Shown: positions 1,410 through 28,425 of the stretch, piece by piece
Numbering within the stretch: position 1 is the stretch's first letter
Layout: each line of letters begins with the position of its first letter
NCBI GenBank assembly: GCA_022925895.1
Contig: JAKSYS010000719.1
Span: 1 to 30,469 of the forward strand
Direction: 5' to 3'
Length of the DNA: 30,469 nt
From: Fragilaria crotonensis
Lineage: Eukaryota; Bacillariophyta; Fragilariophyceae; Fragilariales; Fragilariaceae
Notes under the pieces: model-generated
Told to the model about the DNA's origin: nothing
The model's database searches: none
Seen by the model: the letters and a program-made list of their open reading frames with translations, nothing else
Translations under genes and position numbers: made by a program

Positions 1410-2291
1410 GATTGGTGCGGTGCTTGCAATTGTTCGTGCAATGCTTCAGGAAAACTACTATGATACCACGGTATGTGAAAACAGTTTGATACTCGCCCGG
1501 ACTGCACAAGCAATCGACAGGAAGAGTAAGGCGTCGATGTTTGAATGTGGCGAGACTGGGTGGAGAGTGGAGACAGGAGGGGGAGGATGATTGCATTGAG
1601 TGGATTTGATACGGTACGGCAGTGTTTTGGTGTTGCACTGGAACGAGAAACAAAATTCTACTGACATAAATCAGCCTACTGCTACTATGCATAGTGCAGT
1701 GTCGCGTGCACTTTTCCACTTGGTTCCTGGTACCAGCTACTACGAGAGTACTGTACCAGGTACTTTTAGCGGTGCGACCTCCACGTTGAAGGTTCGTGCT
1801 GACCGTCCATTGGTCCAATGTCATTCACAACACGCGGCACGCGGGCACGCGGGAACCAAATCGACCGTAGAAACCATACCAGGTAGTATTTCAAGGACGA
1901 CTATGAGATACACAGTATTAACATCGTACCAGTACGCAGACTGCAGCTACCGTAGACTTCTGAACTTTACATACAGTAGTACTCGATACTCGCATTACAC
2001 TTCTACATGACATATAACGTTAGAGTACTTAGTACTCCGAGTACTCGGGTACTTAGTAAGACCCTCCGAGCATGTGAACTCTCTTCGAAGGACTTTTCAG
2101 TACCGAGTGTGAGCACGGAGCATCGCCATAAATTCAAATCCGAACATATATTTGTGTACGACGTTGGATATATCTTGAATATTGGCTTGTTGCACTGCAA
2201 AACATCAAAGCAAAATCCGGGAACCAACAACCACCGACACCATGTGTAGTTGGAGGACATTCAAGATTTGCGACTGCAACAAGGCAAGGCC
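1410..2291. other. Intergenic region with GTAC-centred palindromes
   Basis: No convincing gene is seen. The stretch separates the divergent PheRS and sulfotransferase genes and so holds both promoters. From about 1728 to 2070 it is packed with short palindromes centred on GTAC, such as CTGGTACCAG, ACCAGGTAC, GTACCAGTAC and GTACTCCGAGTAC. Short open frames here have no family-like features. Confidence 0.6.
1728..2070. repeat. Cluster of GTAC palindromes
   Basis: Repeated short inverted motifs built on GTAC include TGGTACCAG (~1728), GTACCAGGTAC (~1750), CGTACCAGTACG (~1926) and the run GAGTACTTAGTACTCCGAG (~2024). The same vocabulary recurs at 3690-3980, about 7237, 7831, 8210 and 11290. Copies are dispersed and imperfect, not a tandem array. 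Confidence 0.6.
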
Positions 2292-3245
2292 ATGGCGAAC
2301 CGCCAATCGAAACGATGCAGTCCGTTTCTTTTCATGCTGACGGTGATTTCTTTCATTTTGGGTTGGAGGCTTTTGCGGCTGTCAGTGTTGCCTGAGATGC
2401 AACCAACCGGTGAAACGATGGGTACAGAAACGAAGTCCTACATGATGTTCACATCGTCGCCTCCCGCCTTTGTCGATGAGGTTGTTAGTTGCTTGCGCTC
2501 TGAAACATGTCACATTCTTTATCATCATGTTCAAAAGACAGGTGGTAGTAGTGTTGCATCACGGCTTTTCCCACTTGTCGAGCAACGGGAATACAATTCC
2601 AACGAATGGTGTTGCAACGAAAAGTTGCTCGATCGCTTTCGCCTCCATCCGCGTGAATACTGCTCTCGAAAGTTGAGCGTGTATGAAGTCAAGGCCCCTC
2701 AATATCATGAAATCATGGAAACTTGTAAACATCTTCATCCGTCCCATTATTACCTTTCTCTCATTTCGGTTAGGGAACCGATTCAACGGACTTTATCGAT
2801 GATCCATCACCAATGCAACAAGAATTTTGACCACAAGAATGCGATTGAGCAATCAATTTGTTCCAATTGTACGTACACTCCCGAATCGGCATGGTTCTGG
2901 GATCAATTTACCACTCAGACGAATACAATCTACGTGGAACTGCTGGAAATGGTGCAGAACGAAACCCGGCAACGCCTGCTTCATCACCGACCGACCAAGC
3001 TCACGTGGTTGTTTCTGGACAATTCCATGATTGATCCATTTCTGGAATTATTCAAACTAACCATGCAAGTGAATCTCACGTACGGCAAGAGCAACAAGGA
3101 GAATACACATGTGTGTAACTTTGGAATGACATCCAGTATGATGAAGGACTTGCGACGGTCTCAAATGATTTATGCCAGTTTGGTCGGTGGTTACATGCCA
3201 GAACATGGTACTCGATACAGCCAAAGCAGTTCGGCCGTTCAGTGA
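2292..3245 (+). CDS. Type II membrane sulfotransferase-like protein
   Basis: Predicted Golgi-type sulfotransferase that would move sulfate from PAPS to a glycan or protein; the substrate is unknown. The 317-residue protein starts at the ATG at 2292 in a GCCATGG context; the open frame extends upstream only through a TTG. Residues ~11-33 form one hydrophobic segment (PFLFMLTVISFILGW) preceded by basic residues, as in a type II signal anchor. HVQKTGGSS (~79-87) matches the 5'-phosphosulfate loop (PKTGGTS-like). SVREPIQRTLS (~169-179) matches the 3'-phosphate motif (R-D-P-x-x-R-x-x-S), with Glu in place of Asp. Many cysteines and several N-x-S/T sites fit a lumenal domain. The family call rests on these two motifs and the topology; the rest is divergent. 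Confidence 0.75.
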   Translation: MANRQSKRCSPFLFMLTVISFILGWRLLRLSVLPEMQPTGETMGTETKSYMMFTSSPPAFVDEVVSCLRSETCHILYHHVQKTGGSSVASRLFPLVEQREYNSNEWCCNEKLLDRFRLHPREYCSRKLSVYEVKAPQYHEIMETCKHLHPSHYYLSLISVREPIQRTLSMIHHQCNKNFDHKNAIEQSICSNCTYTPESAWFWDQFTTQTNTIYVELLEMVQNETRQRLLHHRPTKLTWLFLDNSMIDPFLELFKLTMQVNLTYGKSNKENTHVCNFGMTSSMMKDLRRSQMIYASLVGGYMPEHGTRYSQSSSAVQ

Positions 3246-6010: not shown

Positions 6011-7210
6011 TTACGTCACCGTGTCCTGAGTGATCTCCACATCCACCAAATTGCAATCCTCCGCGTCGGGATGAACATTCTCCAAATCCTGCGATGATGG
6101 AAGATCATCTTCGTCAACGCCGCCGGAGCTGCTATCGCTTCTGGTATCTGAATTGTCACTGCCGGGGACCGCTAGCTCTGGAGCAAAGTCATCAGCACGT
6201 TGGTCATCATTTGACTCGACAGGTCGAGACTTTACACCGATGACGATTTCCGATATTAATGAACAGAAGGAGTACCTGTCACCTCGATTTCGTCGCAACG
6301 CAATGTACCGGGGTCGGACGTAGATGATAAGGTTGAAGAGGCCTTGGAGTGGTACTATCAGCTTAACCAAGAACGAAAGAACAAATCTGGCTGTCTCTTG
6401 CTGTGTTGGGAACACATGGTTGAACGAATGGTTCACGAGGAGAAGAGCATTCGGAAAAAGGCTTGCCGCAATGTAGAGCAGCGCTTGGGCGACAGTTTGT
6501 CTTGCTGTTTGATCCAGTCGAGGCCGTGTTCTATATCGCACGACAGCGGCAATTCGACCTCGAACGTGACATATGATCATGAACATAATGATCGCGATTC
6601 CAATAAACGAAGGAAACAGCATGCCAACGAACATAACAAATGAGATGGTCCTCTCCGAGAACCCTCGCGTGCACTCACCGGCTGCGGCGTCGCACAAGGG
6701 CGGATACTTTGTAAATGAGCACCATCCACCAAGAAAAGGCAGGGGATTCAATGCACTCGTTAAGAGCGCCCAGAAGTTTACTGCCATTGGTATACTTAGT
6801 GCAAGAAAGTGTGTGTAGGGCTCAATGTTACGTGAAACAAACTTCTGTGTTTTCCCATATCGAACGATCAGGAGATAATAAAGTGCCAGACCAAAATTGT
6901 AGAGAATTTGAGACGCGAAGAAGGTGTTCAAGAAACCACTCGCCGCGCATGAAGCGGTGTTGCCCTGAGCGCCCCAGAAGTTGCCTACTGGGACAAGTAG
7001 AAAGCCAAAGGCAAAGTTCAAGGACGCGATGCAGTCACAAATGGACAAGGCGAACAAAATGCGATGATAGACACATTTGAGTTTCTCGTGGCGATCTCTC
7101 CAAATGATGTAGATGATGGTGAGCGACCCGAGAAGAGACACCAATCCTGAAATTAGCGAGGTGATTACCAGTGTGATTTGTTGAGGTATGGTGTAAAAGT
7201 CGACGGCCAT
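6011..7210 (-). CDS. GPCR-like seven-transmembrane receptor, copy 1 (intact)
   Basis: A single-exon, 399-residue protein with seven hydrophobic helices at about 12-36, 51-74, 92-117, 131-154, 189-214, 239-260 and 275-299. An early cytoplasmic loop has IWRDRHEKLKC. A second extracellular loop has several cysteines (GGWC...PPLC...GEC) that could pair with Cys near 87 (NTASC). Helix 7 ends in LFNLIIYVRPRY, which resembles the NPxxY region. A long acidic, Ser/Asp-rich tail (~320-399) follows. The layout is closest in style to cAMP-receptor-like or other non-rhodopsin GPCRs of protists; the ligand is unknown. A broken paralogue lies at 13329-14496, and homology extends about 130 bp upstream of both starts. 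The start at MAVDFYTIPQQ is shared by both copies, which supports it. Confidence 0.82.
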   Translation of the reverse strand: MAVDFYTIPQQITLVITSLISGLVSLLGSLTIIYIIWRDRHEKLKCVYHRILFALSICDCIASLNFAFGFLLVPVGNFWGAQGNTASCAASGFLNTFFASQILYNFGLALYYLLIVRYGKTQKFVSRNIEPYTHFLALSIPMAVNFWALLTSALNPLPFLGGWCSFTKYPPLCDAAAGECTRGFSERTISFVMFVGMLFPSFIGIAIIMFMIICHVRGRIAAVVRYRTRPRLDQTARQTVAQALLYIAASLFPNALLLVNHSFNHVFPTQQETARFVLSFLVKLIVPLQGLFNLIIYVRPRYIALRRNRGDRYSFCSLISEIVIGVKSRPVESNDDQRADDFAPELAVPGSDNSDTRSDSSSGGVDEDDLPSSQDLENVHPDAEDCNLVDVEITQDTVT

Positions 7211-8357
7211 GGTGAGTTTGATAATGAATTACGATTGTACCAGGTACGTCAGTTCCAAGTTATTTCTGCGTGACGATGTGAGGCACTGGAGTGCCTGGTA
7301 TCACGGCCTGAAGGCGACAAATGCAAGGTTTGTGTTTTCAGTCACAATACAATGAAGGGTACTGTGGCGTACAGTCTTCAGTGTTGACGCTTTGTTGGAC
7401 TGGGATGTACAGCTGTGCAGTTAACACGTTCACACTGTGTTTGCTTCACGTATAACTATTATTTATTTAGAAGGTTTGTTGGGCACTCGAGTGATGAGGA
7501 AGTACCGAACACCTATCAGGTCATGGTGAAGCCGAAAAATATCCATTGTTATACTACGAGTTCACTAATTCGCAGAGAGGCATTCTCTGTAGTTCGGTTT
7601 CGTCAAGGGCAGTAGCAATTTAGTATACTCGAAAGATATAGATGTTGTATTCGTGAAACACTTGTTCGAGGTTTTCGGTGTGCCTTTGGACTCTTATGTG
7701 TGCGATGATGGCATGTTGTTCGATGACCCGATGACTGACAAATGGTCCGCGCGTTTCGTTCTCGCAAAAAAAAAACGGTCTTATTTATTTGCCCGAAACC
7801 CGACTGACCATGATTTATTTATTATATATGTACTCCGAGTACACGTTGTAGTTCGCCTCTGAATCGCGATAGTAGTATCAACTGCATTTTCTAGGACATC
7901 CTCCCTTGGAGTGTCTCTTCATCAATGACGCTACAGTACCGAAGCCAACAACCTGTTGCCATCCGAAATGTCATTTCTATAGGATGCAAATGAGACATTG
8001 TCGATTTCGATGAGTACGTAGATAAGTCACTGATGACGATTTTTACATTCCAATTCACCACTAGTTACCAATTTCCACGTGCACTGCGTGAACTGTGACC
8101 GAATCGTTTGATGTCGGAATTCGAGATCGGAAGACGTGACAAGGAGAACAAGAAAGGCAAAACCTAATAAATGTTGACGGATATATGTAGTAGAGGGATT
8201 CTACCTGGTACATGTACCTGGTAGTATGACAAATACACCACAGCGACTGGCGGAATTCCTTCTCATCTGGGATAAGGGTTCTTGCACCGAGTTGAAAAAT
8301 CTTTCTGCTGGAATAGAATTGATGATACAATTTTTGAACTTTGACAACTCTACTCTC
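7211..8357. other. Gene-free stretch between GPCR copy 1 and the transposon
   Basis: The first ~130 bases are the 5' flank of the GPCR gene and are partly conserved upstream of GPCR copy 2. They carry GTACCAGGTAC at ~7237, which copy 2 lacks. The rest is AT-leaning, with short frames lacking motifs and isolated GTAC palindromes at ~7831 (GTACTCCGAGTAC) and ~8210 (ACCTGGTACATGTACCTGGT). Confidence 0.5.
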
Positions 8358-8548: not shown

Positions 8549-10867
8549 TCACTCATTCAATTGTGCGTGGTTGCGAGACAGGTGATTCAAAAAGCACCGT
8601 TGCCCATTTTTGGTTGCACAAAGATACACTGTTTTTCCGTCATCATCGCAGTCGGAGCACTGCCATGTCGACTTCTTTTGGCACTCCTTGCACCTCCCTT
8701 GATACCTGAAAGTTGTTTTTTCACCTTTGCTATTTTTTAGGCGCTTCACAGGAGTTAAATGAGTGAGCACACCGGCACGTGGGCCTGCGCTTTCAAGCGC
8801 TCTGATGCAAGCATCTTGAAACGAACTCCCAGTCGGTGATGATCGAGGTCGATCCGCTCGACCTCTATTACCATAGGAATTGTCGATCAGCTCTTCTGCA
8901 AGGGCAGCATAGAACTCCTTTTGATTGTAGCCAACGCCGGCCGGTGTGCTCTTGAAGGTGGAATAGACCAACCAAGTGTCAACGACGATCATCGAAAAAA
9001 TTGATAAGTTTACTCGCATTGACCAATCCTTTGTCTCGATCTTCTTTTCAATTCGTAGGTCATCCTGTCGCAGCCTGTTGTGTTTGTCGATGGCTGCACA
9101 TGTAGAATAGTAGATCTCGGCAATTTTTGGTTGCTGTATGGAGAATGTCACCTGCTCTGGCGCAGCATTTGGAGCTTGATCCAATTGCCTCCACCGAAGG
9201 CGAACATATGGCGTTCCGGCTTCAAGGGTACCGGCAGTTGATATGAAGTACCGACGCTCACGGTCCATCCAGACGAATGCACCCAGTGATGGTTTGTTGT
9301 CACTTGCAAGTCTCTTAAGTGCCAAGAAGTCCCCGCGACTTTCCAATTCCACGCTGGAAAGGAATGTCTTCGGAAAGCCTCGAGTTGCCGTCTTGACAAC
9401 TCCGATGAAGCGAAGGCCATTTCGAAACAATTCTTCTGCCGCTCCCACTGACGCAAAATAGGAATCGGCACAAACAATCCTGTTTGAACCGAACCAAGGT
9501 GAGACAACCTGCTTTAATACATTCGTTCCATGCAACAAACTGCTTTCGTTTCCCGCAACCTCATCATCATCGTCTGCACCCATAAGGTCCGCTCCCTTGA
9601 CAAGTTTCAAACGAATCATCACACCACTCCTTCCACACGCAGCATTTTGTATTTTGCAGCCATTTTCAGGCTTTCGGTCAATAGCAATGTACTGAGGGAG
9701 GCCATGATTAATCCAGTGCCCTCCTTTACCGTACCAACGGCTCATGGATTCGTCAACACAGATTAAGTCTGAAGGATTGAAATAATTGGCACGATAGTCG
9801 TTGAAGTTCTTGACGAAATCATCGACCAGCCTCCATCGATGTTGCTCCGAAGAAGTCCCCACATCAGGGACATCAGGCTGATAGCTCCACCGAATGGTTC
9901 GAAACAGGTCTTCAAACCTGTGTTTCGACATGCCCGTCAAGCCAAACTGAGGTGCTGGTTGGTACTTTGTCCACGCGGTGGTTTGCCATAAGGAGGTCCT
10001 GGAGGTGAACTCGAATTTCGTAGTGAGAATGATTATGCCGAACAATTTCAACAACTCACTGCTTGATGTTTGCTTCAACTCCAACTTGCCAAGCTCACAG
10101 TTTGTCCAATGAACCATGTCAAGGAGCTGCTTTGGTGGGAACATTAAGAGAAAAAAATCCAAGGGCAACATATCCTGTGTAACAGTCGTGTTATGTCCCG
10201 GAATCAACACCTCACCAACCATGTTCCGAATGTTCCACATTCGAAACGGTACATTACCATTCAAAGGCGGGTCGTTAATTGATGCCCTGACCCATTCAAC
10301 GCCATTGACAGTGGCAATCACAGGAGGTGAAGACGCATTAGTGGTATCGCCATGCAACAACAAGGTCTCCGAGACATCTTCCGGAGAATGGTGAAGGCCT
10401 GCTGCTGCGGCATTTGCTGCATTGCTGGAAGCACCAGGGACAATTGTCTCAATATTGTTGATGGTGGCGGCATTATTGACGTCCATAGGCATGACATGAT
10501 CAGGCAGATTGACTCCAGGGGCTTCATTTGCGATGTTGATCGGAATCGATACATCAGTCCCGAGTCCAGTCACGGGTTCATTACGCTCGTCGGGGATGGC
10601 TGCAACGTGACCAGCCTTCACCGACCTTGAATTCAAGGTCGCGACCTTCACGCACTGCCCACCAAGGGTATATATGGCAGTAATAAGAGTCACCGCTCGC
10701 TTTTGTGTTGATGATGGGACAGTTTTAATCTCTGACACCGTCCCGTTGACAAGCTTGGTTTTCGCGTTGCTGCCGTAACGACGGTGACACTCAATTAGAG
10801 CCGTCACATGCATGGCTTTTGCATGCACGGGTGCCCCCACCTGGAAACGAGGATCATTACTGCTCAT
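8549..10867 (-). CDS. piggyBac-like transposase (DDE_Tnp_1_7 type), intact
   Basis: A 772-residue transposase that would cut and paste its element at TTAA sites. The core runs from about 235 to 645. Candidate catalytic aspartates are D372 (ICVDESMSRW), D468 (IVCADSYFAS) and D594 (AAIDKHNRLR), each in the sequence context typical of piggyBac. The first ~190 residues are low-complexity, Asn/Ala-rich and not recognised. The C-terminus (~726-767) has a Cys/His cluster (CKECQ, WQCSDC, YLC, RCFLNHLSRNH) that fits the zinc-binding domain of piggyBac transposases and could bind the terminal repeats. There is no stop or frameshift, the start context is unremarkable, and the gene lies wholly between the inverted repeats. 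Autonomy is plausible; domestication is possible but less likely given the preserved ends. Confidence 0.92.
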   Translation of the reverse strand: MSSNDPRFQVGAPVHAKAMHVTALIECHRRYGSNAKTKLVNGTVSEIKTVPSSTQKRAVTLITAIYTLGGQCVKVATLNSRSVKAGHVAAIPDERNEPVTGLGTDVSIPINIANEAPGVNLPDHVMPMDVNNAATINNIETIVPGASSNAANAAAAGLHHSPEDVSETLLLHGDTTNASSPPVIATVNGVEWVRASINDPPLNGNVPFRMWNIRNMVGEVLIPGHNTTVTQDMLPLDFFLLMFPPKQLLDMVHWTNCELGKLELKQTSSSELLKLFGIIILTTKFEFTSRTSLWQTTAWTKYQPAPQFGLTGMSKHRFEDLFRTIRWSYQPDVPDVGTSSEQHRWRLVDDFVKNFNDYRANYFNPSDLICVDESMSRWYGKGGHWINHGLPQYIAIDRKPENGCKIQNAACGRSGVMIRLKLVKGADLMGADDDDEVAGNESSLLHGTNVLKQVVSPWFGSNRIVCADSYFASVGAAEELFRNGLRFIGVVKTATRGFPKTFLSSVELESRGDFLALKRLASDNKPSLGAFVWMDRERRYFISTAGTLEAGTPYVRLRWRQLDQAPNAAPEQVTFSIQQPKIAEIYYSTCAAIDKHNRLRQDDLRIEKKIETKDWSMRVNLSIFSMIVVDTWLVYSTFKSTPAGVGYNQKEFYAALAEELIDNSYGNRGRADRPRSSPTGSSFQDACIRALESAGPRAGVLTHLTPVKRLKNSKGEKTTFRYQGRCKECQKKSTWQCSDCDDDGKTVYLCATKNGQRCFLNHLSRNHAQLNE

Positions 10868-11128
10868 CTCTACTTCAGTTGATGATGTTGTCGATGAGCG
10901 ATGGACGCATCAATATCATCGTCGAGAATTCCCACGACTACGAAAAAAATGGGAGGGAAAAAAATTTCATACAGCAAATCTCTTATAACTTTATTACAAC
11001 AAACACTGGCCTTCTGCCCATTCAAACCATGCACCTTTATACAGTTCTTGAGGCGCACACCAACTTAGAAGTCCGACGGACGACGAACAAGATAACAGGA
11101 ACGATTTCCGAAATGAGCAAATACGGAA

Positions 11129-11427: not shown

Positions 11428-11554
11428 TGAGCCAAACGACGTGACAACAACCGCAGGATGACGACTTCTGCGTCGGCTGATATCCGGATGATGAGAATGG
11501 GAAGCCATCAAGTCTGGTTCTGTGCCAACGAGACAGTAGAGAGTGTAGAGGATG

Positions 11555-11572
11555 CCCCCCCCCCCCCCCCCC
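11555..11572. repeat. Poly(C)18 tract
   Basis: Eighteen consecutive C inside the pseudogene. The intact gene has GGTGCACCTACAGACG at the equivalent place (~20418). Confidence 0.9.
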
Positions 11573-12734
11573 TGCAGGTGCAAGGCGAGTCTCGTTCTGC
11601 AGAATCCTTACGTCGTCAGCATCATTGGTTTGCTGCATCTCCTCAACAACAACTTTAGACGTCGTTTTTCAGTGTCTGGCCAACAACAATTGACAGAAAT
11701 TTCAGAGTTTGAGTCTGCTGGTAATCACTCCTTAATCGCTGATCGTTTTGAGACACGCCCTGGGGCTTCTCAATGTCCGCTCGTGTCGATCGCATTCACA
11801 ACGAGGCAGATTCGTCAACGTCGGTAAGCGACAGCAGATTATCGACCCGAGAAGTCTTGGCAGGACACAATTCAAATTTGATCATTCAGAACGTTATGAT
11901 GCCAACCCTCGGCGACGAATTAGGGACTGAGGCAGATTCAGACAACGAGCACAGGAATGTGGACGACCTCCCGGAACAAACTACGGAAGCGGCGGAGCCT
12001 TCGCCGCCGAAGAGAAATCTTCTAAACATCGCTCGCGCTTACTTCCGTGGAGGAAGTGATATTCTCGTGATCTCACTGCTTGGGACAATGGTATATTTCT
12101 TCATTGTTGGGATGCGATTAGTGGTGGTGCTGATCGAAACGGGTGTTCTGTTAATTACGACAACACTTGGCATCTTGAAGAAGCGCAGTTGAGTTTTTCT
12201 CAGACAGGCGCTATTCAAGTCTCTCAGCGGCTGCTCAATCCGTTGTTTTGGCTGGAAAACTAGCGAAAGCGGTTCAGACAAAACATGCTGGTGAAAATGG
12301 CCATTCCCTTGGTAGTGTACTCGAGGAGACTGATACATCGTCCAATGCTGAAGCAGGGCTCTGCAAATTCGAACGCGAGGCGTGCAGCTTTCCACAAGGA
12401 AAGGCCGACAGTATTGTTGATGCAAAGCAAACCTAACAAGACCTTCCACACCTTGGTGACGACAGCTGCGCTAACCTGCAGGATTATCTAGTGGTGGTTG
12501 ATCCCAACAAAACGCAGCACGCGATTCCTGCTGTCGATAGGTTCAAGAAGTTGGCACATTGCACCTACGACAACGTAGTGATGTACCTTCGTTCTTTATT
12601 GGGTCACCTCCTTCGCATCGTCGACATCCAAGCGAGATACCTACTGTTCACTCGTAAGGAATGGCTGGCGCTTCTCCTCCACCGCCAATATCCCGAGACC
12701 AAGCGTGGTTCGACGTGTGACTTCTCTTGGCAAT

Positions 12735-12938
12735 GCCTTGAAGGGATCGGAAGTGGCAACAGGAGGTGCAACGATGGCTGCTATTAAAACGGGTCACATT
12801 CGACGCGCGTCATCGGTCGGAGAAACTGTCAGTGTCGCCTTGAAGGGATCGGAGGTGGCAACAGGAGGTGCGACGATGGCTGCTTTTAAAACGGGTCACG
12901 TTTGACGCGCGTCATCGGTCGGAGGAACTGTCAGTGTC
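12735..12938. repeat. 102-bp tandem duplication
   Basis: Two nearly identical 102-bp units (12735-12836 and 12837-12938), each beginning GCCTTGAAGGGATCGG. The intact gene has a single copy (~23184). The length is 34 codons, so the duplication keeps frame. Confidence 0.9.
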
Positions 12939-12950
12939 GCACTTGACTTG

Positions 12951-13350
12951 TCATAGCCATCCTCCCTAGCGATCCGAGTTGCACATCGTGCTTCCGAGGA
13001 CGCACCCTGATTCCTCCCTCGAGAATGGTGGCAAGACACTATTGTAGGTAAAATCAAGTAGTACAATAAACAGCGATTGAGTTGATTTAGGCTGCCAACA
13101 AAGTGTGCGTACGTATGCTGTCTCGTTCCTTCTGAATCATGTCCTCTTGACCCTTGCGCTTCCGATAAAACAGGGATTTTAGGAACTTTCGAAAAACATG
13201 AGAACATCCGACTGTTCGGACATGATGGGCATACTTGGAATCTTTCAAGGGATACTCATTTGTGCCTCACATACCTGCATCATGTGATCCATAAATGCGG
13301 AATCTGCATCGACTCATTATGGAACATGTCAGCCTGCTGAGCGGTCATTC
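12951..13350 (-). pseudogene. Remnant of the 3' part of the convergent unknown gene
   Basis: It matches 23330-23795: the MLO-fusion 3' flank, including AATAAA at 13065-13070, then the tail of the minus-strand gene (TTTCGAAAAACATGA, CATCCGACTGTTCGGACATG, GATGGGCATACTTGGAATC). Only one of the two 90-bp units found at 23432-23611 is present. Similarity stops at GCTGAGCGGTCA, where GPCR copy 2 begins. This is the visible breakpoint of the duplicated block. Confidence 0.82.
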
Positions 13351-14496
13351 TCTACATCCTGCGTTGATGGAAGATGATCTTCGTCAACTCTTTTAGTTTC
13401 GATTTCAAAATTATCACTGCCTGGGGCGGCGCGTTCTGGCGCAAAGTGATCAGCAAGTTGATCTTCATCTGCCTCAATAGGTCGAGCTTTCATTCCGAAG
13501 ACGATTTCCGACATTATCGAACAGAAGGAGAGGCTGTCCCCTCGTTTTCGTCGTAACATTATGTACCGGGGTCGGATGTATATGATCAGGTTGAACAGCC
13601 CTTGGAGCGGTAGTATCAGCTTTATCATGAACGAGAGAACAAATCTGACAGTTGTGTCATGAGTTGGGAAAAAGAAGTTGAACGAATGGTTCACGAGGTA
13701 AAGAGCATTCGGTAAAAGACTTGCCGCGATGTAGAGCAGCGATTGGGTGACAGTTTGTCTTGCTTTTTGATCCAGTCCAGGGCGTGTTCTGTATCGCACG
13801 ACAGCACTGATTCGGCCGCGAACGTGACGTATGATCATGAACATAATGATTGCAATTCCAACAAACGAAGGAAGCATCACCCCGAAGAGCATAGTGGCCA
13901 TGATGGTCCTACTCATCAAGCCTCGAGAGCACTCGCCCGCTTGAGCGTTGCATAAGGGTGGATACTGTGCAACTAAGCACCATCCACCGACGTAGGGCAA
14001 GGGGTTCAATGAACTCGTATAGATTGCCCAGGATGTGAGTCCCATTGGTAAAGTGAGTGAAAGTAGGTGTACGTAGGGTTCAACGTAGCGTGCGATGAAT
14101 TCCTGTGTCTTCCCATATCGAATAATTAGGACATAGTAAATTGCCAGTCCAAAATTGTAGGGATTTGAGACGCGAAAAGGTGGCCAAGAAACCACTCGCC
14201 TCGCATGAAGCAGTATTGCCTTGAGCGCCCCAGAAGATACCTTGAGGGACAAGAAGGAAGCCAAAAGCAAAATTCAATGATGCGACGCAGTCGATAAGGG
14301 ACATGGCAAACAAAACGCGATGATAGACAAATTTGAGTTTCTTGCGGCGATCTCTCCAAATGATGTAGATGATGGTGAGTGACCCTAGGAGCGACACCGA
14401 TCCAGAAATTAGCGAGGTGATTACCAGTGTGATTTGTTGAGGTATGGTGTAAAAGTCGACGGCCATGGTGATTTCGATTTTTAATGATGACTGCAA
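13329..14496 (-). pseudogene. GPCR-like receptor, copy 2 (frameshifted)
   Basis: Paralogue of 6011-7210, with the same MAVDFYTIPQQITLV start (ATG near 14466), the same helices and the same RTRPGLDQKARQT loop and LFNLIIYIRPRY ending of helix 7. The frame breaks in helix 3. Copy 1 reads FFASQILYNFG; here two single bases are missing about 20 nt apart (~14160-14180), so upstream reading continues as FSRLKSLQFW and stops. Downstream the other frame is open from SNPYNFG to the end. The C-terminus is shortened: the acidic tail ends at VENDRSAG because the gene was joined to other DNA at ~13350. Apart from these changes the coding sequence is well preserved, so the loss is recent or due to sequence error. 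Confidence 0.85.
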
Positions 14497-15880
14497 TTCC
14501 GTTCAGTGTTGTTCTGTGTGACAATCTGAATTCCTACTCTGTTGTCTATCACGGGTTGAGGGCGTCGAATGCAGGGTTTGTGTCAATCACCTGAGGCTTG
14601 TTGTGCGCTTTCTTGACTGAACTGCGGGGAGCGGGGAGTAGACTACTGGTAGAACGTTGGGTTTTTGTCCGTCACGAGGAATGAGGAAGGGCTCATGTGT
14701 GTATCATATTAGAAATGTTGGAAATAGGGGACGTATCAAGGTTACAGAATTAGGGAGAGGTGGAAATAACTGCCCGTGAGGGACATTTATTGGGTGTTCG
14801 TCTGTTAACAAAGAACATTTTCGACGGGGTACGCTGGTCCTAAATTGGCACAGATAGAATCTGAGAATGGTCATAATGTCATAATGGTTTTTAATGCGTT
14901 TCACATGCCTGCCAGACATTTTTGGCTTCTGTGGTTGACCCATAAACATTTAAGCCGAGGAATTCCTCGACTTACGTTTTTTGAAAAATCATAAATCTGT
15001 ATGTGACATACAACACGATAACACGATTACACTCATTTCCATCGATTGACCGAGGGACACGAATGCAGTGGTAGACCATACTCGGCGAGCTTCTGACAAC
15101 ATGCATTTTTGCGTGTTTGAATACACACGTACTTAAAAAGAAAGCTTGTTGTAGGGGAAGACGGGATTTTTATTGCTCCATTAGATTTCCACACCAAACA
15201 ACGTCAGGAAGCGTAATCTCATAATCTCGAGATCGAGATGCGAATGTGATTACTTCGATTACTACCTGGTGGAGTAATTTCGACACTTGTACTGCACATC
15301 GCACAAGGTTGGCTTTTGAATGCAATCGCAGCCCAATCGCGTGAGTTCATAATTCAATGAAAACGTGTCGGGATGTTTCAGGATAAGGAACCGCCTGAAA
15401 CCAAACGAGACACATCGTTTCTAAAAAACCCTGAAAACATGTTTTCTTCAGGGCGTGTTTTCAGGACATAGGTGCGACACGAACCGAGAAATTCTTGAGT
15501 TTCGAGCGACAGGCATATTCGTCAGGAACAACGACTGTATTGGCCTCCCGACATAATGTTTTGGGTTCTTAAACCGATAAGATTAGTGCATGAATATTTT
15601 TGGAACTTGATATCTTTTAGACTTAAGAGTTTAGAGTGCCTCCTTTTAAAATTTTCATCGTCGTCGTTGCATGACCGTGTCGACGTTGGCACAACCAATG
15701 GCCACCAACTTTTGGTTACGAGCCCTCCTCGGGGAAAGCATCTTCCCTAATGACAAACCGGGCCTGCAAGTACAACGTCGACGCTGGTAGCGGTGTAGCG
15801 GTGTGGGGTCTGCATTTGAGGTATCGGGAAGAGAACTGAGGAAGACAACGAGGTGGACAGATCTATCTGCATACAAGATG
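14497..15880. other. Gene-free stretch with hairpin cluster
   Basis: The first ~120 bases resemble the 5' flank of GPCR copy 1. The rest has no supported gene on either strand. Inverted repeats at 15376-15402 and 15430-15465 are the only structure I see, besides AATCTCGAGATCGAGAT near 15220. Confidence 0.5.
15376..15465. repeat. Two adjacent hairpins sharing a TTTCAGG stem
   Basis: GTTTCAGG (15376-15383) pairs with CCTGAAAC (15395-15402). CCTGAAAACA (15430-15439) pairs with TGTTTTCAGG (15456-15465), and the palindrome GAAAACATGTTTTC lies inside. The shared stem sequence suggests a folded repeat remnant. Confidence 0.6.
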
Positions 15881-18127: not shown

Positions 18128-21100
18128 ATGCGAGCAACGCTGAAAGAAAGGCTCTCTCTGCTACCTGAAATTGCCTACCAGCATGTGTTCAGGGCAAGCG
18201 CCGAAGGCGAATCGGGAGCGTCTTATCTGGATTTCTCGATCCTGAGCGTTGCTGTAACGACTCTTGGGTTGATCTTGCTAGTACAGCTCATTCGGCACAG
18301 ACTAGATCGCAATGCAACCGGTCGACCTTTCTTCAAGACTGTCTTGGAGGGCGTGTATCGAGAATGTAAGTTCGTTTTCAGCATATTGTTACTGTTGCAT
18401 TTTGTGCTGCGTGTAACAGCGCAGTTCTCTAAGTTTCGCTAGCTTCGATCTCACCCTTTTTCGTTCTTCGGATTCAGTGGCAACACTAGGAATTGTCGAG
18501 TTCGTCATCTTCCTGTTGCATAAGTATTATACCGATCTTAACGTGGCGCAGGAGCTCATATTTGCAGACGTTCATTTTACACTTTTCTTCACTGCATTGT
18601 TCAATGCCTTCCAATCTTGCATCTTGGCATTCTTCATTTCTCGCAATTCTCACAGGTTGTGGGTGCAAACTGAATATCAAGATTTGCACCATTACGTGGA
18701 AATCCGCGAGGAGTTCGACAGGCTTGACAAGGAGCTGCGAAAATTCAGAGAACCGCTGTCGGTTCATGGCACAAGGTTCGACTCCAACAAAACCGACCGC
18801 AGCAATGGTTCTCTCCGCCAATCCATGACAGCTCAAATGTGGGCCACTGATGAATCGGATCGCGTGCGTGGTGAATTTGGATACTCATTGCAGAGCATCA
18901 AAAAGGTCTGGTACTTCCTGCTCCGGTCAGCGCGATATCCCCGTTTGTCTCGGAAGCATAATGATCTGCTCGTTCAGGTCCGATTTCACGAGCTCAAATT
19001 TCACTTTATTCAAGCCAACAAGCTTCCCATAACCATGCACCTCTCCGATTACTTGAAGCGATGCGAGCTTCGCATTATGCAAAAGCTGGTGCATATTAGG
19101 ACGCTAGCCTGGCTCCTTCTTACTGCTGGTCTTAATCTCTTGTATTTCTTGATGGGTGTGGTTGTGTACACGACGGATGGCGACCTCGCGACAGTGGGAA
19201 AGGCGATGACGGTCATTTTCTTCTCTGGTATTTTCGGCTTTGTTGCACTTTCATTGATTATTTGGAACAAAATGACTTGGATATTCTATACGATCATGCA
19301 CACGAAGCTTATTACACAATCTGGACCGGTCGAGCACCACGAGAACGGCCAAGCTTCGGACCAGCCAGCGCCAGCGAACGATGGGCTTCCTGCTTTTAAT
19401 CAGCAATCACTCTTCTGGGGAAGCAGTCCCAGGTACATCATTATCTTGATTCAGTTCATGCAATTTGGCTTCGCTCTGGCGCTGTCAATTCTTCTCGTCT
19501 TCTGGGATGACATTCATCCACAGAGTGAATCTCCAGGCCTCAAAGCCTGGTACTTTCTGTTGGCAGTGGTTCTAGGATACATCTGCTTCGTTGCTATTAT
19601 TTCCAGGGTTGTTCCTCGGTTCACTCTTTGTTCCAGCATCGGCCAGATGGTGGACCAAGACCAGCTGCATGAGACATTAGCTCGACATCGCCTAAAAGAA
19701 GCTCAACGAGAGCGCCAGCAGAAACTGATGGAACAAGAGTTCGAGGAAACCTTTCGGCAGGAGGAGGGTGACTATTCTCAATACCTTGTAGGCTTAGTAT
19801 CAGGGAATTATGGCCCGTTGTTCAAACCTCAAGTCACTTCCTTAAGTTCCAGGGTTTTGATGGATCCAAACTTGTTACAAGAATTAATCAAGACAAGTAC
19901 CGAGGATCTCAGAAAAACATTACCGGCGAAGCAGCAAGACGAGTTAAATGAACAGGAAAAACTGGTTCAAGCCCGCCGGAGTCGCAGAAAAACGCTTTCA
20001 GATGGGTAAGTTTTTTCTGTGTGATATTCGTGGGATACACGTAACGACTAACATTGATCCTAGAGTGGAGGCCATGCGCGAAATGGTTGGCCTGGGATCG
20101 GAGATGAGCAGTTCTGGAGCCGCCGACAGTCGGAAAGCGAATCGTCACATGAGGCGCAAGTCGTTGTCGGCATCTGCAAGTATTCAAATGATGAGAGATG
20201 TGAAATCTCTATCGGTTCCACTCAAACAGGAGTTACCTGATGCTCCCCTCAAGACTAAAGATGACTTAGATGTGTCACTTGACGACCGAGCCAAACGACG
20301 TGCCAACCGTAGGAAGACGATTTCTGCGTCGGCTGACATCCGGATGATGAGAATGGGAAGCCACCGAGATGTTTTGAAGGCTGATTCTGTGCCAAACGAG
20401 ACGGGAGGGAATGTAGAAGGTGCACCTACAGACGTGAGGCGAGTCTCGTTCTCGGAATCAAACTCGTCATCATCGTTGGTTGCATCTCCTCATCAGCAAC
20501 TTCGGAAGTCGTTTTCAGTGTCTGGCCAACAATCATTAACAAAAATTTCAGAGTTTGAGTCTCCTCGTACTCACCCCTTTTTTGCTGATCGGTTTGAGGC
20601 GAGCCCTGGGGCTTCTCGATGTCCGCCCGATCGTATTCACAACGAGGCAGATTCTTCGACGTCGGTAAGCGACAGCAGATTATCGATCCGAGAAGTCTTG
20701 GCAGGACACAATTCAAATTTGATCATTGAAAACGTCAAGATGCCAACTCTCGGCGATGAAGCTGTAACTGAGGCAGATTCTGACGACGAGCACAGTGATG
20801 TGGACGACCTCCCGGAAGTTCAGGAAAGCGACAAACAACGGAAGGCGGAGCCTTTGCCTCCGAAGAGAACTCTTCTAGATATTGCTCGCGCTTACTTCCG
20901 TGGAAGAAGTTACATCCTCGTAAGCTCACTCCTCGGGACTATGGTATGCTTCTTTATTGTTGGGATGCGATTAGAGGCGATGCTGATCGAAACGGGTGTT
21001 CTCGTCAATAATGACAACACTTGGCACCTTGAAGCGCAGGTAAGCTTCTGGGTTGAGTTTGGACTCCTCACTTGTTTCATATTCGGGGACTTCGTCATCC

Positions 21101-23391
21101 TCTACATCTTCCGACCCGGAAGAATGTTTGACAATCGCGACCGACGTGTATTCGTTTCCACCATCATCGACCTGTCAATTTGCGTGACCTGCATTGGCTG
21201 CTTGACTGGTGCGCAGGTACAACGTTGTTGTGATGACGCCGAAAAAAGATTTCTTGGTGGAAGTGAAACACCTGATGGCTACTACGGGTATGAACAACCG
21301 ATTGCGTGCTGTCCTCCATTTGGCGAGAGACTATACGGAGGCTATGGAAGCATTGAAATGTTCACATCGCTGGTTGGCTTAAGAGTGGTGCGATTCTTTG
21401 CAGCAAAGATTTGCGTTCAGAGATTTTACAAAAACAGTAGCTTGCCAGAGACGGCAACTACATCTGCGGAAGGTGATAGTCCCCCAATAGAATATCCTTT
21501 TGATCCATTTTACGAGGTGCGCGTGAAGGGTCAGTCGAAACACCGCGCACGCCTTGATGATGAAACTGGCACAATCGTCGAGCTATGGAAGTCAGCTTTG
21601 GCGTTACATCCAGACATCGTCGCCAAGCATGGAGAGTTCAGTGGCCAGCTGCTTCAAGCTATGTTGGGCATTCCTGTTATATGTGACGATACAGCAGGTT
21701 CTACCGAAGCCATAAAGGACTCCAAAACGGATGATGCCGTTGACGGCGTCGATCAGGAGCACCTCGGAGAGTCAAAGTCGATATCAAGAGAACGCTTGGA
21801 AAGCGGAGACACACCGATCTCAAGGCGTCGCCTGGGAAGCGGAGACATGTCGATGTCAATGCGTCGTCTGGGAAGTGGAGATGTGGATGAGCCCCAAGCA
21901 TTAAGTCGACCGTCCATAATTTCAGACAGGCGCTACTCAAGTCTCTCAGCGGCTGCTCAATCCGTTATTCTGGCTGGAAAACTAGGGAAAGCTGTTCGGG
22001 CAAAACATGAAGGCGAAAATGGCCATTCACTTGGTAGTCTACTCGAGGAGACTGAGACATCAAATGCTGAAGGAGGTATCTCTGCAAGTTCGAACGCGAG
22101 GCGTGCAGCTTTCCACAAGGAAAGGCCTACATTGCATCACTACGGAGAGAGTCAAACAGACTTAGGGTGGACGGCACAGTTGGCGCAAACGCCTGAATTT
22201 GAGATAAGGACTGATGACGACGATGACGAGTCTGCCTCTCAATTCTTCGCCCCTAATTCTAGACTCATCAGGAGCATGCGACGTTGTGACCGCAAAGTCA
22301 TGCCCATGCTGGATAGGTGGACAGTTGTTGATGTTGTCATGACAAACTTTGAAATCGTTTATTTTGATGCCAGCGACGTTGACGACTTGGGCGGTTCAGC
22401 AAATCCACGCATCAAACGTATGCAAGACATTCGGCAGGCAATCATTGCCACGAAAGGTGGGAAGGGGCTCCGTCTCCGTGACGTTGCCTTTGGCAGAAGG
22501 GTAGTCGGAACGCAGGTCCTCAACGACATTGAATCGATCCATGTGGATCGCATTTTGCCACACATGCACAGACATGATTCTGTCGGAGCTGCCGCTCGTG
22601 AACCGCTAGCCGACGAGTTCTGGAAAGAGAAGGTTCATCAGAGTGCTGCTTCGGAAGAAAACATGCCCGAGGATGTGAAGCCCTCCAGGCACATTAGGTG
22701 GACGTCCATCAAGGAAGACCGTTTGAAAGTCAAGACCAAGCATGATACTACGCTTTATTTGCGATTCTATAGCGATTTGGACAATTGTGAGTCACACCAG
22801 GAACGAATGATGAACGAACTTGAAACAGAAGGAGACCTTTTCAAAAACAACGCCTTCCAATGGTGTCAGACCATTGGTCGCATTGTTGGGGCAAGCAAAC
22901 TCAAACAAGACCTTCCACACTTCGGCGACGACAGCTGTGATGAACTGCGGGACTATCTTGTGGTGGTTGATCCCAACAAAGAGCAGAGCGCGATTCCTGC
23001 TGTCGATAGGTTCAAGAAGTTGGTCACATTGCACCTACGTCAACGTAGTGATGTCCCTTCTTTCGTTATTGGGTCACCTCCTTCGCATCGTCGCCATCAA
23101 AGCGAGAGGCCTGCACCACCGCCACCACCAACAATGTCCCTCCCGAGACCAAGCGTGGTTCGACGTGTTACTTCTCTTGGCGATGCCTTGAAGGGATCGG
23201 GGGCGGCAACAGGAGGTGCAACCAAGCCTGCTTTAAAATCGGGTCACATTCGACGCGCGTCATCGGTCGGTGAAACTGTCAGTGGCGCGCTTGACTTGAC
23301 ATCGCCATCCGAAGCGATCCGAATTGCAGGTCCTGCTGCAGAGGACGCACCTGATGCCTCCCTTGATAATGGTGCCAAGACACTATTGTAG
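18128..23391 (+). CDS. MLO-like protein fused to a second membrane module and a PH-like region (three exons, 1697 aa)
   Basis: Exons are 18128-18365, 18478-20005 and 20064-23391; both junctions keep frame. Residues 1-480 are MLO-like, with helices at ~36-57, 80-95, 116-133, 289-309, 323-342, 399-421 and 436-455. LFWGSSPRYIIILIQFMQF matches the LFWF-x-x-P-x-x-LL signature, followed by the amphipathic SIGQMVDQDQLHETL segment where MLO binds calmodulin. A charged coiled linker follows. Residues 590-870 are Ser-rich with basic phospho-site-like repeats (RRKSLSASA, RRKTISASA). Four more helices lie at ~871-893, 915-938, 951-972 and 1018-1037, with two Cys-Cys pairs in the last loop and LRVVRFF in the last helix, loosely like a voltage sensor. 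Three 12-residue RRLGSGD repeats precede a PH-like region (~1340-1540) and a proline-rich tail. Plant MLOs are membrane proteins linked to calcium entry; the role here is inferred. The MLO call is good, the second module tentative. Confidence 0.85.
18366..18477 (+). other. Intron 1 of the MLO-fusion gene
   Basis: 112 nt, GTAAGT...TTCAG. It splits a Leu codon and joins VYRE to LATLGIVEF, which rebuilds the second MLO helix. Confidence 0.88.
20006..20063 (+). other. Intron 2 of the MLO-fusion gene
   Basis: 58 nt, GTAAGT...CCTAG with GACTAAC as branch site. Splicing joins RRKTLSDG to VEAMREMVG (phase 2). Without it the MLO part ends at TAA (20007). Retention would therefore give a 589-residue MLO-only protein, and splicing the 1697-residue fusion. 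Confidence 0.8.
21784..21891 (+). repeat. Three in-frame 36-bp repeats
   Basis: Three 36-bp units encode imperfect 12-residue repeats (SRERLESGDTPI, SRRRLGSGDMSM, SMRRLGSGDVDE) in the linker of the MLO fusion. Each has a basic-x-x-Ser phospho-site pattern. Confidence 0.8.
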
Positions 23392-23408
23392 GTAGAATCA
23401 AGTAGTAC

Positions 23409-23414
23409 AATAAA
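23409..23414 (+). terminator. Poly(A) signal-like AATAAA
   Basis: AATAAA starts 18 bases after the TAG stop of the MLO fusion. The copy at 13065-13070 in the pseudogene block is conserved. Close convergent genes make this position plausible for 3' end formation. Confidence 0.45.
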
Positions 23415-23431
23415 CAGCGATTGAGTTGATT

Positions 23432-23611
23432 TAGGCTGCCAACAAAGGGAGCGTACGTAAGCTATCGCGTTCCTTCGGAATCATGTCCTCTCGACCCTTA
23501 CGCTTCCGATGAAATAACGACTAGGTTGCCAACAAAGTGTACGCACGTGAGCTGTCTCGTTCCTTCGGAATCATGTCCTGTCGACCCTTACGCCTCCGAT
23601 GAAATAACGAC
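23432..23611. repeat. 90-bp tandem duplication covering the tail of the convergent gene
   Basis: Units 23432-23521 and 23522-23611 begin TAGGCTGCCAACAAAG and TAGGTTGCCAACAAAG and end GAAATAACGAC. The minus-strand gene stops at 23521-23523, exactly on the unit boundary. The outer unit encodes a second copy of its last 30 codons followed by its own stop. The older block at 12951-13350 has one unit. Confidence 0.88.
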
Positions 23612-24633
23612 TTGGGAAACTTTCGAAAAACATGATAACATCCGACTGTTCGGACATGATGGGCATACTTGGAATCTTTCAAGAGATAATCACGCGCCTC
23701 TCGTCCCAACACCACGTGATTCAGGAATGCGCAATCTCCTTGGTCGTCTTCCGAAGACGAGTCAAGGAACATGTCATCCTGCTGAGCGGTCAGGGTACTG
23801 ACCGTGGTGAAACTTCGCGCCGACAAAGTTCGGGCTCGATAAAGTGGTGGAAACAGCGCAGGTGTCATCCCATGGCCAGGTCGTCCTCGTCGATTGCCCG
23901 GGTCCTCCATGCCGTGTGCGATATTCCACGAGGACATGAAAAGCATGGGAACAATACTCTCGTTTTGTTCATCATAATGCAATTGGGCATAACCAAATAT
24001 GGGAGCATGTTCGCCACTGTCTTTCTGAAGTGTAATGGACTTGGGTGGAAGGCCTTCTGTGGATGGGTTGCTTTGAAGCACGCTCGAGTTTGATTTTGTG
24101 GCATCACCTTGGCTATCCTCAACAGGCATGGAGTCCGGGGCGACACGATGGTCGATTGCGAGACAGTCGCCTTGCATCACATCAACCTTGTTAGCTGCAG
24201 TGCCTGCCGAATCCCTTTCATCGTTGTTGGTAAGATTTTGGATCGGAAAACGCATGGTCGACATTTTTATGCTTTTTGCGATACAATGAAGGCAGCGTAA
24301 AATGGGCGATCATGATCGGAAGGGATGTACCAGTGTGGTAGTGGTACATGAGTAGTTGTAGTATTATTGTTGTCGGCGCTGTGGACGTGATTATACTCAC
24401 ATCGTGGTAACTCTCGCCAACTGGAACAGGAAAACTTGGAGATTTGGAGTATATTCGCAGTTCGTAATGTTGCGTCCTAACAGATTGAATCCAGTTTTCA
24501 TCCTCTGCGCCGCACCCATCCTTCCCGGATCAACACGATTCTGTGCCGCATACGACGACTCCATTTCATACTCTGGTATGCATAATAGCATGCAACGTAT
24601 AGCTTCGTCGGGATTCCCAACCAACTTGTCCAC
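23521..24633 (-). CDS. Unknown protein, two exons, convergent to the MLO fusion
   Basis: Exon 2 (24271-23521) is a firm open frame. It is Ser/Asp-rich in its middle (DDMFLDSSSEDDQGD) and ends in a basic tail (KSLFHRRRKGRQDMIPKERD). Upstream, a minus frame from 24633 (MDKLVGNPDEAIRCMLLCIP) reaches a GTGAGT donor at 24400, and an AAAAAG acceptor at 24273-24272 restores frame, giving 327 residues. If that intron is wrong, translation could begin at MSTMRFPIQNL (24264) with 247 residues. I recognise no family. Part of exon 2 is conserved in the decayed block at 12951-13350, so the gene travelled with its neighbour in the duplication. It ends 130 bases from the MLO-fusion stop, tail to tail. Confidence 0.6.
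24272..24400 (-). other. Possible intron in the convergent unknown gene
   Basis: GTGAGT donor, weak pyrimidine tract, AAAAAG acceptor, 129 nt. Supported only by frame continuity (VTT joined to IIKMSTMRF). Confidence 0.45.
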
Positions 24634-25347
24634 TCTTTAAGTCAGATGAGTTATGAGTTATGAAATATGTAATGACCGTGAGATATTTTGAGTTTTCATT
24701 GTTTTATAGAACACTCCGAGTTAACAACTACATAATACAACATGCAGAGCATGTAGTTTGTAGTGTATGGTGTACGGATATATAGCATGTAACATAACAC
24801 ATAACACTCAAAATGATTATGGCCACAGCGAGTATGTTTGTAAACATGTTTGTAAACATATATTTTAAAGTATATAATTGATATAGTATATACAGAGTAA
24901 AGAGTATACTGACGACGCCGCATAGAAAAACTCAAGAAATCTAATGTCACGATATATATATATGTATATTAATCAGAAATTTGAACACTGTTGTTATACT
25001 CAGTCAACTACTCTAGAGAGCTAGATTCCAAATTCCAACGTACTGATCTGGAATCTCAAAATCGGACGATGCCCCGGCTTCGACACAAATGAATAATGGG
25101 ACCCACCCCATCAGAGAATTATGAGACAGAACTCAGATGTTGCATGATTCATTGCTCCATCATCTACTCTGTTGATAGTTCATAGGTTACAGTTTATGCT
25201 TTATACTGTACACGCAGTTGTTCGGTCTCGTTCATCATCACATTGAAATCGAATATCGAGCGTTCCGTCTCAGACTGCGCTCTCGACACTTGTCAATCAT
25301 ATCTGTACAGCGGTCAAGTCACCCAACACTCAATTTTTATCATTGAC
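24634..25347. other. AT-rich gene-free stretch (head-to-head promoter region)
   Basis: It separates the divergent unknown gene and riboflavin kinase gene. AT-rich, with a tandem 12-mer TGTTTGTAAACA at 24835-24846 and 24847-24858 and TATATATATATG at ~24953. No coding signal is seen. Confidence 0.55.
24835..24858. repeat. Tandem TGTTTGTAAACA pair
   Basis: Two exact adjacent 12-mers containing TGTTTGTAAACA, a forkhead-like word, between divergent genes. It could be a regulatory site; there is no direct proof. Confidence 0.4.
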
Positions 25348-26283
25348 ATGGTTTCAATTCCATACTTGTCAGCAGCCACGATAATGTTTTTGCTATCTCA
25401 CTTGGTCCACGGGTTTGTCCCGTCGTTGCCGAAAATATCCCTAACAAATCGCCTGCTGGTAGCCCACTCGCAGTTTGCCTCAGCATCCATCACTCCTGGT
25501 CACGATCGTGCATTCACAACCAGGATTGCCCTGTTTTCTTCTTCATCTTCCAATACTTCAAAAGGCACAAGCAACACAACAGCAACTGCTACTCCTTCTT
25601 CGAGAAGTGTTCAACCTCTGGATCGCGTGATTCGATTGAGGGGCAAGGTTGCAACAGGATATGGTCGAGGTGGAAAGAAATTGGGTTTCCCAACCGCCAA
25701 TCTACCCTCATCACTCTTTCAGAATGCTCTGCAACATGTTCCGACTGGTGTCTATGTAGGATGGGCTTGGATTGAGGAAGATCATCAACGAAATCATGAT
25801 AATGATAGTCCGATCACTGCTACTGCTACAGGACGAGGTGTCGCTCACAAGGCGGCCGTCAATGTCGGATATTCTCCAACCTTTGAAGGAGTCGAGAATA
25901 AGGAGAAGATTGTCGAAGCTCATTTGATTCGTTGCAGCAACGACAACAATGATGATGATGCCATGACTGATTTTTATGGCGAATACATGCGATTACTTCT
26001 GGTTGGATACTTGAGACCCGAACAAAAGTTTGATTCCTTCGCAGCCCTAATGCAGGCCATTACATCTGACGTGGAAACAGCCAATCTCGCTCTCGATGAA
26101 GAACCCTATGTGTCATTCCGATCCGATATGCCATTTTTTGAAGACAATGATACGAAAACGAAGGACCTTAATCATGATCCTTTTGCAGTTGGACCAGTGT
26201 GGATAGGCAAGGATGGTGGTGATGCCGAAGCGAGTTGGGAGTTTCAAGATTGGAACCAGGCGCAGGTGATGTCACCAGTGTAA
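25348..26283 (+). CDS. Riboflavin kinase, probably plastid-targeted
   Basis: It converts riboflavin and ATP to FMN. The 311-residue protein starts at the first ATG of the open frame (25348). It begins MVSIPYLSAATIMFLLSHLV, a signal peptide, then HGFVPSLPK, where Phe at the presumed cleavage point matches the plastid ASAFAP-type rule, then a Ser/Thr-rich transit-like stretch to ~85. The flavokinase domain (~91-250) shows GYGRGGKKLGFPTANL (ATP loop and metal-binding PTAN), PTGVYVGWA, AAVNVGYSPTF, VEAHLI and DFYGEYMRLLLVGYLRPE with the catalytic Glu after YG. There is no FAD synthetase or HAD phosphatase domain. A low-complexity Asp/Asn insert sits in the domain (~145-160 and 198-206). The function call is firm; plastid location is inferred from the N-terminus. 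Confidence 0.9.
   Translation: MVSIPYLSAATIMFLLSHLVHGFVPSLPKISLTNRLLVAHSQFASASITPGHDRAFTTRIALFSSSSSNTSKGTSNTTATATPSSRSVQPLDRVIRLRGKVATGYGRGGKKLGFPTANLPSSLFQNALQHVPTGVYVGWAWIEEDHQRNHDNDSPITATATGRGVAHKAAVNVGYSPTFEGVENKEKIVEAHLIRCSNDNNDDDAMTDFYGEYMRLLLVGYLRPEQKFDSFAALMQAITSDVETANLALDEEPYVSFRSDMPFFEDNDTKTKDLNHDPFAVGPVWIGKDGGDAEASWEFQDWNQAQVMSPV

Positions 26284-26390: not shown

Positions 26391-28425
<2,035 letters not shown>

Follow-up and report, generated by a model that had tools for sequence, protein, structure and literature searches.

A predicted single-chain diatom membrane protein joining a divergent MLO-like module to a second, four-helix module

The gene described here occupies positions 18128 to 23391 on the forward strand of a 30,469-nucleotide stretch of the genome of the diatom Fragilaria crotonensis (assembly GCA_022925895.1, contig JAKSYS010000719.1, positions 1 to 30,469; hereafter, the window). 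As predicted from the DNA, its three exons very probably encode a single chain, in which a seven-helix module that is, in all likelihood, a divergent relative of the plant MLO proteins is followed by a basic linker, four more hydrophobic segments with charges placed as in voltage sensors, and a long tail. Taken together, the observations suggest a real gene with an unusual architecture; the evidence for the MLO-like part is weak but mostly consistent, and that for a voltage-sensor module is suggestive.

The coding sequence is divided among exon 1 (18128..18365), defined by its translation and GT donor, with the start codon, the N-terminus, helix 1 and the start of helix 2 (residues 1-80); exon 2 (18478..20005), with MLO-like helices 2 to 7 and the start of the predicted cytosolic linker (residues 80-589); and exon 3 (20064..23391), with the remainder of the linker, the four-helix module, the putative cytosolic tail and the stop codon (residues 589-1697). 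Intron 1 (18366..18477; 112 base pairs (bp), GTAAGT...CAG) and intron 2 (20006..20063; 58 bp, GTAAGT...CTAG) are both frame-keeping GT-AG introns, and the joined exons translate as one frame of 1,697 codons plus a stop, with no internal stops, so that the three exons with in-frame junctions proposed in the preliminary description of this DNA are borne out. Codon-usage log-odds, derived from two parts of this gene (18480-19700 and 20401-23388) and scored on held-out pieces, favor the proposed frame in exon 1 (+8.3 against -26.8 and -8.9 in the other frames), the tail of exon 2 at 19701-20005 (+9.3 against -22.8 and -6.2) and the head of exon 3 at 20065-20400 (+18.2 against -29.9 and -43.8), whereas intron 1 scores negatively in all frames.

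The main competitor of the single chain is a pair of genes read as one, namely, a 589-amino-acid MLO-like gene ending just inside intron 2 and a second gene in exon 3. Were intron 2 retained, a stop would follow at once and yield a protein of 589 amino acids consisting of the MLO-like part only, which is an ordinary length for an MLO; the exon-3 frame is open from 19948, where there is an ATG; intron 2 itself scores +3.1 in that frame; and a decayed relic elsewhere in the window, discussed below, contains exon 3 only. Furthermore, among 15 sliding windows, the three that begin at 19780, 19840 and 20440 favor another frame, which counts against a sharp switch. Nevertheless, the summed coding signal lies in the exon-2 frame on one side of intron 2 and in the exon-3 frame on the other, only 58 bp apart, and because codon usage changes frame across so short an intron, two ordinary genes are unlikely; the gap leaves little space for 3' and 5' untranslated regions. 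The clean GTAAGT and CTAG sites, a CTAAC-like branch point (read by eye) in intron 2, and RRK[ST][LI]S motifs on either side of the intron likewise speak for splicing, although outside these motifs the two sides of intron 2 are no more alike than background windows, 39 of 500 of which reach the same score. We consider two genes improbable, and the single chain assumed in the preliminary description is well supported at the DNA level by the intact frame and the switch in codon usage. Retention of intron 2 (20006-20063), with its product of ordinary MLO size, may represent an isoform switch.

Evidence from outside the gene is provided by the relic, a decayed partial duplicate of exon 3 and its 3' flank at 11429..13347 (forward strand). 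The copy is broken by stops and frame changes and has lost two large internal segments; what survives corresponds to 20288-21034, 21922-22131, 22882-23294 and 23185-23514 as well as the 3' flank at 23522-23792, with 79-89% identity. Mismatches between gene and relic by codon position amount to 46/479, 49/477 and 76/476, that is, 76 of 476 third positions compared with 95 of 956 first and second positions (chi-square p 0.0009), and among the 117 codons that differ by a single change, 52 are synonymous, where a transition:transversion rate of 2 predicts 27% (p 4e-5). Because of this excess of third-position and synonymous changes, exon 3 is, on the substitution pattern, a sequence that once was protein-coding and under purifying selection. 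Part of the divergence presumably postdates the decay and would dilute the selection signal. This signal does not show that exon 3 was ancestrally joined to exons 1 and 2. There is no copy of exons 1 and 2 within the window, and a search of the genome of the same diatom with exon 2 alone returned nothing but this gene and two spurious locations.

A 786-amino-acid transposase frame on the reverse strand (8549-10909; Pfam DDE_Tnp_1_7, E 3.2e-40), which we take to be of the piggyBac type, precedes the relic on its 5' side and may mark where the exon-3 duplicate was cut. Inside the relic, a separate 102-bp repeat (12735-12946) doubles part of the C-terminal coding sequence. At 13346, the relic adjoins the second of two rhodopsin-class receptor-like copies on the reverse strand (6011-7228 and 13329-14502). 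These match Pfam 7tm_1 below its cut-off, with E 5.5e-5 and 0.018, respectively, and are 79% identical over 6076-7335 and 13346-14583, the second being split over two frames. Just downstream of the gene itself, there is a 90-bp direct repeat (23432-23612).

The case for an MLO-type seven-helix module, as the preliminary description had called it, starts with hydropathy, which gives seven peaks near residues 37-55, 75-93, 115-133, 291-309, 323-341, 400-418 and 440-458. The loop between helices 3 and 4 is 149 residues long, with 27 lysines and arginines, and that between helices 1 and 2 has 5 such residues in 21; hydropathy and charge count together predict the topology of MLO proteins, namely, seven helices, the N-terminus outside, the C-terminus inside and a long second cytosolic loop. 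At the start of helix 6, the sequence LFWGSSP (19410..19430, residues 391-397) conforms to LFWxxxP, which we take to be an MLO motif, and falls within the stretch matched by the Pfam Mlo profile. In all five pieces that hold helices 6 and 7, Pfam ranks Mlo first, with E-values of 0.0024 (589-residue piece), 0.0016 (467 residues), and 3.4e-4, 2.9e-4 and 1.9e-4 (three further pieces), the best match covering positions 344-451 of the 483 of the profile. In addition, in a global alignment with a barley MLO sequence, to which Pfam Mlo gives 694.7 bits, the module scores 154 compared with a mean of 73 in topology-preserving shuffles (z 4.9; none of 1000 reaches 154), and z is 5.7 with 200 plain shuffles; the control scores are 83 for the reversed module sequence and 42 for the receptor-like seven-helix protein of the window.

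Several results weigh against this assignment, and against the reading of the protein that builds on it. The Pfam scores, 16.8 to 20.4 bits by piece, do not reach the curated Mlo cut-off of 24 bits, and exon 2 also matched the NCBIfam TssA family, plainly spuriously, at E 0.0037. With 200 class-preserving shuffles, z drops to 3.9, and the shuffle maximum of 164 exceeds the observed score. Neither BLASTP nor single-sequence hhalign with the barley MLO gave anything significant (the barley sequence itself matches no PDB sequence at E 0.01). The loop between helices 5 and 6, inside by the proposed topology, has only 2 lysines and arginines together with 4 acidic residues in 54. Plant MLOs carry conserved cysteines in the outside loops; there are none in loops 2-3 and 6-7 here. 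Nor is there a basic amphipathic tryptophan helix of the calmodulin-binding type directly after helix 7, where 18-residue windows over residues 460-531 have a net charge of -6 to +3, a moment of 0.05 to 0.37 and no tryptophan; basic amphipathic stretches at about 603-629 and 852-874 may conceivably hold a calmodulin site.

These shortfalls invite the alternative that the seven-helix module and MLO do not share an ancestor and resemble each other only as helical membrane proteins may by chance. Apart from the sub-threshold Pfam scores and the non-significant pairwise tests, such a chance likeness would explain why three of six pieces (exon 1 and two from residues 81-357) give no Mlo match, and an Mlo profile search of the diatom's own genome found nothing, yet its controls found nothing either. 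It is at odds, however, with a helix number, loop pattern and order of landmarks that are those of MLO, with the topology-preserving shuffles and with the consistent first rank of Mlo among Pfam families over helices 6 and 7, and we see only a slim prospect of its being correct. Common ancestry with MLO remains, on sequence grounds, much the likelier account. Because the Pfam cut-off, the loop cysteines and the calmodulin-binding helix were each tested and not found, the module is filed as MLO-like rather than as a member of the family. The earlier assignment is supported, though weakly in statistical terms, by the seven segments, the motif, the below-threshold profile matches and the shuffle statistics, and not by BLASTP, hhalign or the Pfam cut-off.

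Beyond the seventh helix, the chain continues into a basic, probably disordered linker (20065..20844 in exon 3) with RRx[ST] motifs, a type recognized by basophilic kinases, at residues 619, 671 and 714, and a further one at residue 582, at the end of exon 2. The four motifs within residues 471-850 compare with 0.55 expected (7 of 5000 shuffles reach four); in residues 1061-1697, there are three against 0.63 expected (133 of 5000 reach three).

The linker leads to four more hydrophobic segments, with hydropathy peaks near residues 872-890, 919-937, 951-969 and 1022-1040. S1 (20908..20964, residues 871-889) has no charge in its core; S2 (21049..21105, residues 918-936) contains the acidic residues E920 and D931; S3 (21151..21204, residues 952-969) contains D958; and S4 (21361..21417, residues 1022-1040) contains R1029 and R1032, three residues apart, as well as K1037. 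The CC pairs at residues 977-978 and 1004-1005 (21226..21312), in the S3-S4 loop that is predicted to lie outside, and the LRVVRFF of the last helix at residues 1028-1034 agree with the preliminary description. Lysines and arginines number 5 in the 13 residues of the S2-S3 loop, which fits a cytosolic location, and none in 25 and 4 in 50 in the S1-S2 and S3-S4 loops, respectively, which fits the outside. Among 200,000 shuffles of the pooled core residues, this combination of S2 and S3 acids with an S4 Arg-x-x-Arg arises in 0.036% by strict criteria and in 0.49% by loose ones, percentages that serve as guides only, since the criteria were set after the sequence had been seen.

From this layout, it appears possible, if only tentatively, that the four-helix module works like a voltage sensor, as had been proposed; the arrangement of charges stands, whereas the comparisons with known voltage sensors do not bear it out. 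Against KvAP and NaChBac, the module reaches z of only 0.7 and 0.15, with 245 and 433 of 1000 shuffles scoring as high, although the two channels find each other at z 6.5. Ion_trans is not listed for the module up to E 10 in Pfam searches whose filters drop most matches above 0.1; the families that are listed, Flavi_NS4A, DUF2448 and SH3_18, are all below their cut-offs. The DUF2448 match covers S4 and the stretch after it (residues 1018-1111; 21349-21630), with E 0.19 in one search and E 0.015 in a longer piece (15.7 bits, cut-off 24.5). Only two S4 arginines are in register, and no S5-S6 pore helices are seen after S4. An alignment-free AlphaFold2 model places long helices where they are expected, but with a predicted local distance difference test score (pLDDT) of 45, and Foldseek with this poor model found nothing better than E 1.9.

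Much of the same evidence can be accommodated by an unrelated domain within the same single chain, be it tetraspanin-like, a TRP-like S1-S4 domain that does not sense voltage, or a lineage-specific one, which would serve assembly or ligand sensing via the cysteine-rich S3-S4 loop. The CC...CC pattern in a predicted outside loop suits such a domain, as do the paucity of S4 arginines, the lack of similarity to the two voltage-sensor channels and the failure of Ion_trans to be listed; TRP and polycystin channels are among the weak Foldseek rows, with insignificant scores and over helices 1 and 2 of the poor model. It does not account for mid-membrane charges in the order of a voltage sensor, and no tetraspanin is listed by Pfam. 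We regard an unrelated domain as a serious possibility, of somewhat less than even weight.

If the MLO-like and voltage-sensor-like assignments are both accepted, a mechanism can be outlined. The gene would encode an 11-helix membrane protein in which residues 1-500 form the divergent MLO-like module, with the N-terminus outside; some 400 residues of basic linker on the cytosolic side, with the repeated Arg-Arg-x-Ser/Thr kinase sites, would lead to the S1-S4 module, which with its pair of acids in S2, single acid in S3 and S4 Arg-x-x-Arg looks like a voltage sensor in reduced form, and a cytosolic tail would follow. By analogy with plant MLOs, the MLO-like part would conduct or control Ca2+ entry, and phosphorylation of the linker together with the four-helix module, possibly responding to membrane voltage, would tune it, so that a unit permeable to Ca2+ or controlling its passage would be regulated in cis. 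An MLO-like channel that is regulated by phosphorylation and has its own membrane regulator built in is the reading that we favor, at slightly less than even odds; the mechanism taken as a whole is doubtful, and an MLO-type Ca2+ channel gated by both voltage and kinases within one chain, in which the four-helix module senses voltage and drives the MLO-like pore, is distinctly improbable. We know of no case of a voltage sensor coupled to a pore among MLO proteins. Scans of sequence collections with few or no eukaryotes returned no relatives of the protein, which also tells against the proposed reading.

The comparison with known systems brings out both the likeness and the distance. With the MLO family (Pfam PF03094), the diatom protein shares the seven hydrophobic segments, the extended second loop on the cytosolic side, the motifs LFWxxxP and PGLKxxY about helices 6 and 7, and similarity to the barley MLO along the whole module; it differs in falling below the Pfam cut-off, in the missing cysteines of loops 2-3 and 6-7 and in lacking the basic tryptophan helix directly after helix 7. 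It further differs in its extra four-helix module and its 1,697 amino acids, compared with the 573 given for Arabidopsis MLO2 (PMC13360292). Arabidopsis MLO1, 5, 9 and 15 are described as producing Ca2+ currents in HEK293T cells with the co-expressed active kinase MARIS, and MLOs as Ca2+ channels unique to plants (PMC9810639), whereas another account has the family restricted to plants and some algae and leaves open whether channel activity is relevant to what MLOs do in the plant (PMC13360292). The presence in a diatom of an MLO-like module, though divergent, would bear on the origin of the family. Voltage-sensing domains belong to ion channels and are also used outside them, as in SLC9C1 (PMC10620092); the second module resembles them in its four predicted helices, the acids of S2 and S3, the S4 Arg-x-x-Arg and the attachment to a transport-type membrane module; with only two in-register S4 arginines, no detected sequence similarity and no visible S5-S6, it departs from voltage-sensing domains. 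Should the second module indeed sense voltage, it would join the few voltage sensors that govern a partner which is not a classical channel pore (PMC10620092). Diatom Ca2+ signalling is, by the account of a survey of diatom Ca2+ channels, little known; the survey covers EukCatA, Cav, TPC, TRP and Orai, and the term MLO does not occur in its main text (PMC11085791). Like the surveyed channels, the protein is a candidate for letting Ca2+ into a pennate diatom, although of a different protein class, and, if confirmed by experiment, it would represent a new way of controlling calcium entry, by a route that the main text of the survey does not name (PMC11085791).

The remainder of the chain, beyond S4, is less informative. 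The RRLGSGD repeats and proline-rich tail noted earlier are both present: the former are encoded by a 36-bp tandem repeat of 2.5 copies (21793..21881) and, being such a repeat, are probably recent and of little meaning; the latter spans residues 1594-1620 (23077..23157). The PH-like character proposed for the intervening region (residues 1322-1550; 22261..22947) gained no support, although such a fold may still be present. A PH domain is a seven-stranded barrel capped by a helix; here, no domain was found, with Pfam listing nothing at E 10 or below for either of the spans 1322-1550 and 1322-1587 (under the same search filters), sorbitol dehydrogenase at E 0.6 as the sole match among PDB sequences for residues 1322-1550, and a mean pLDDT of 30 in an AlphaFold2 model made without an alignment.

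Elsewhere in the window, frames resemble phenylalanyl-tRNA synthetase (132-1085, reverse strand; Pfam class II core F), a sulfotransferase (2250-3245, forward) and riboflavin kinase (25186-26283, forward), and a TGT trinucleotide tract of about 202 copies (27426-28030) opens long artificial frames of a single amino acid.

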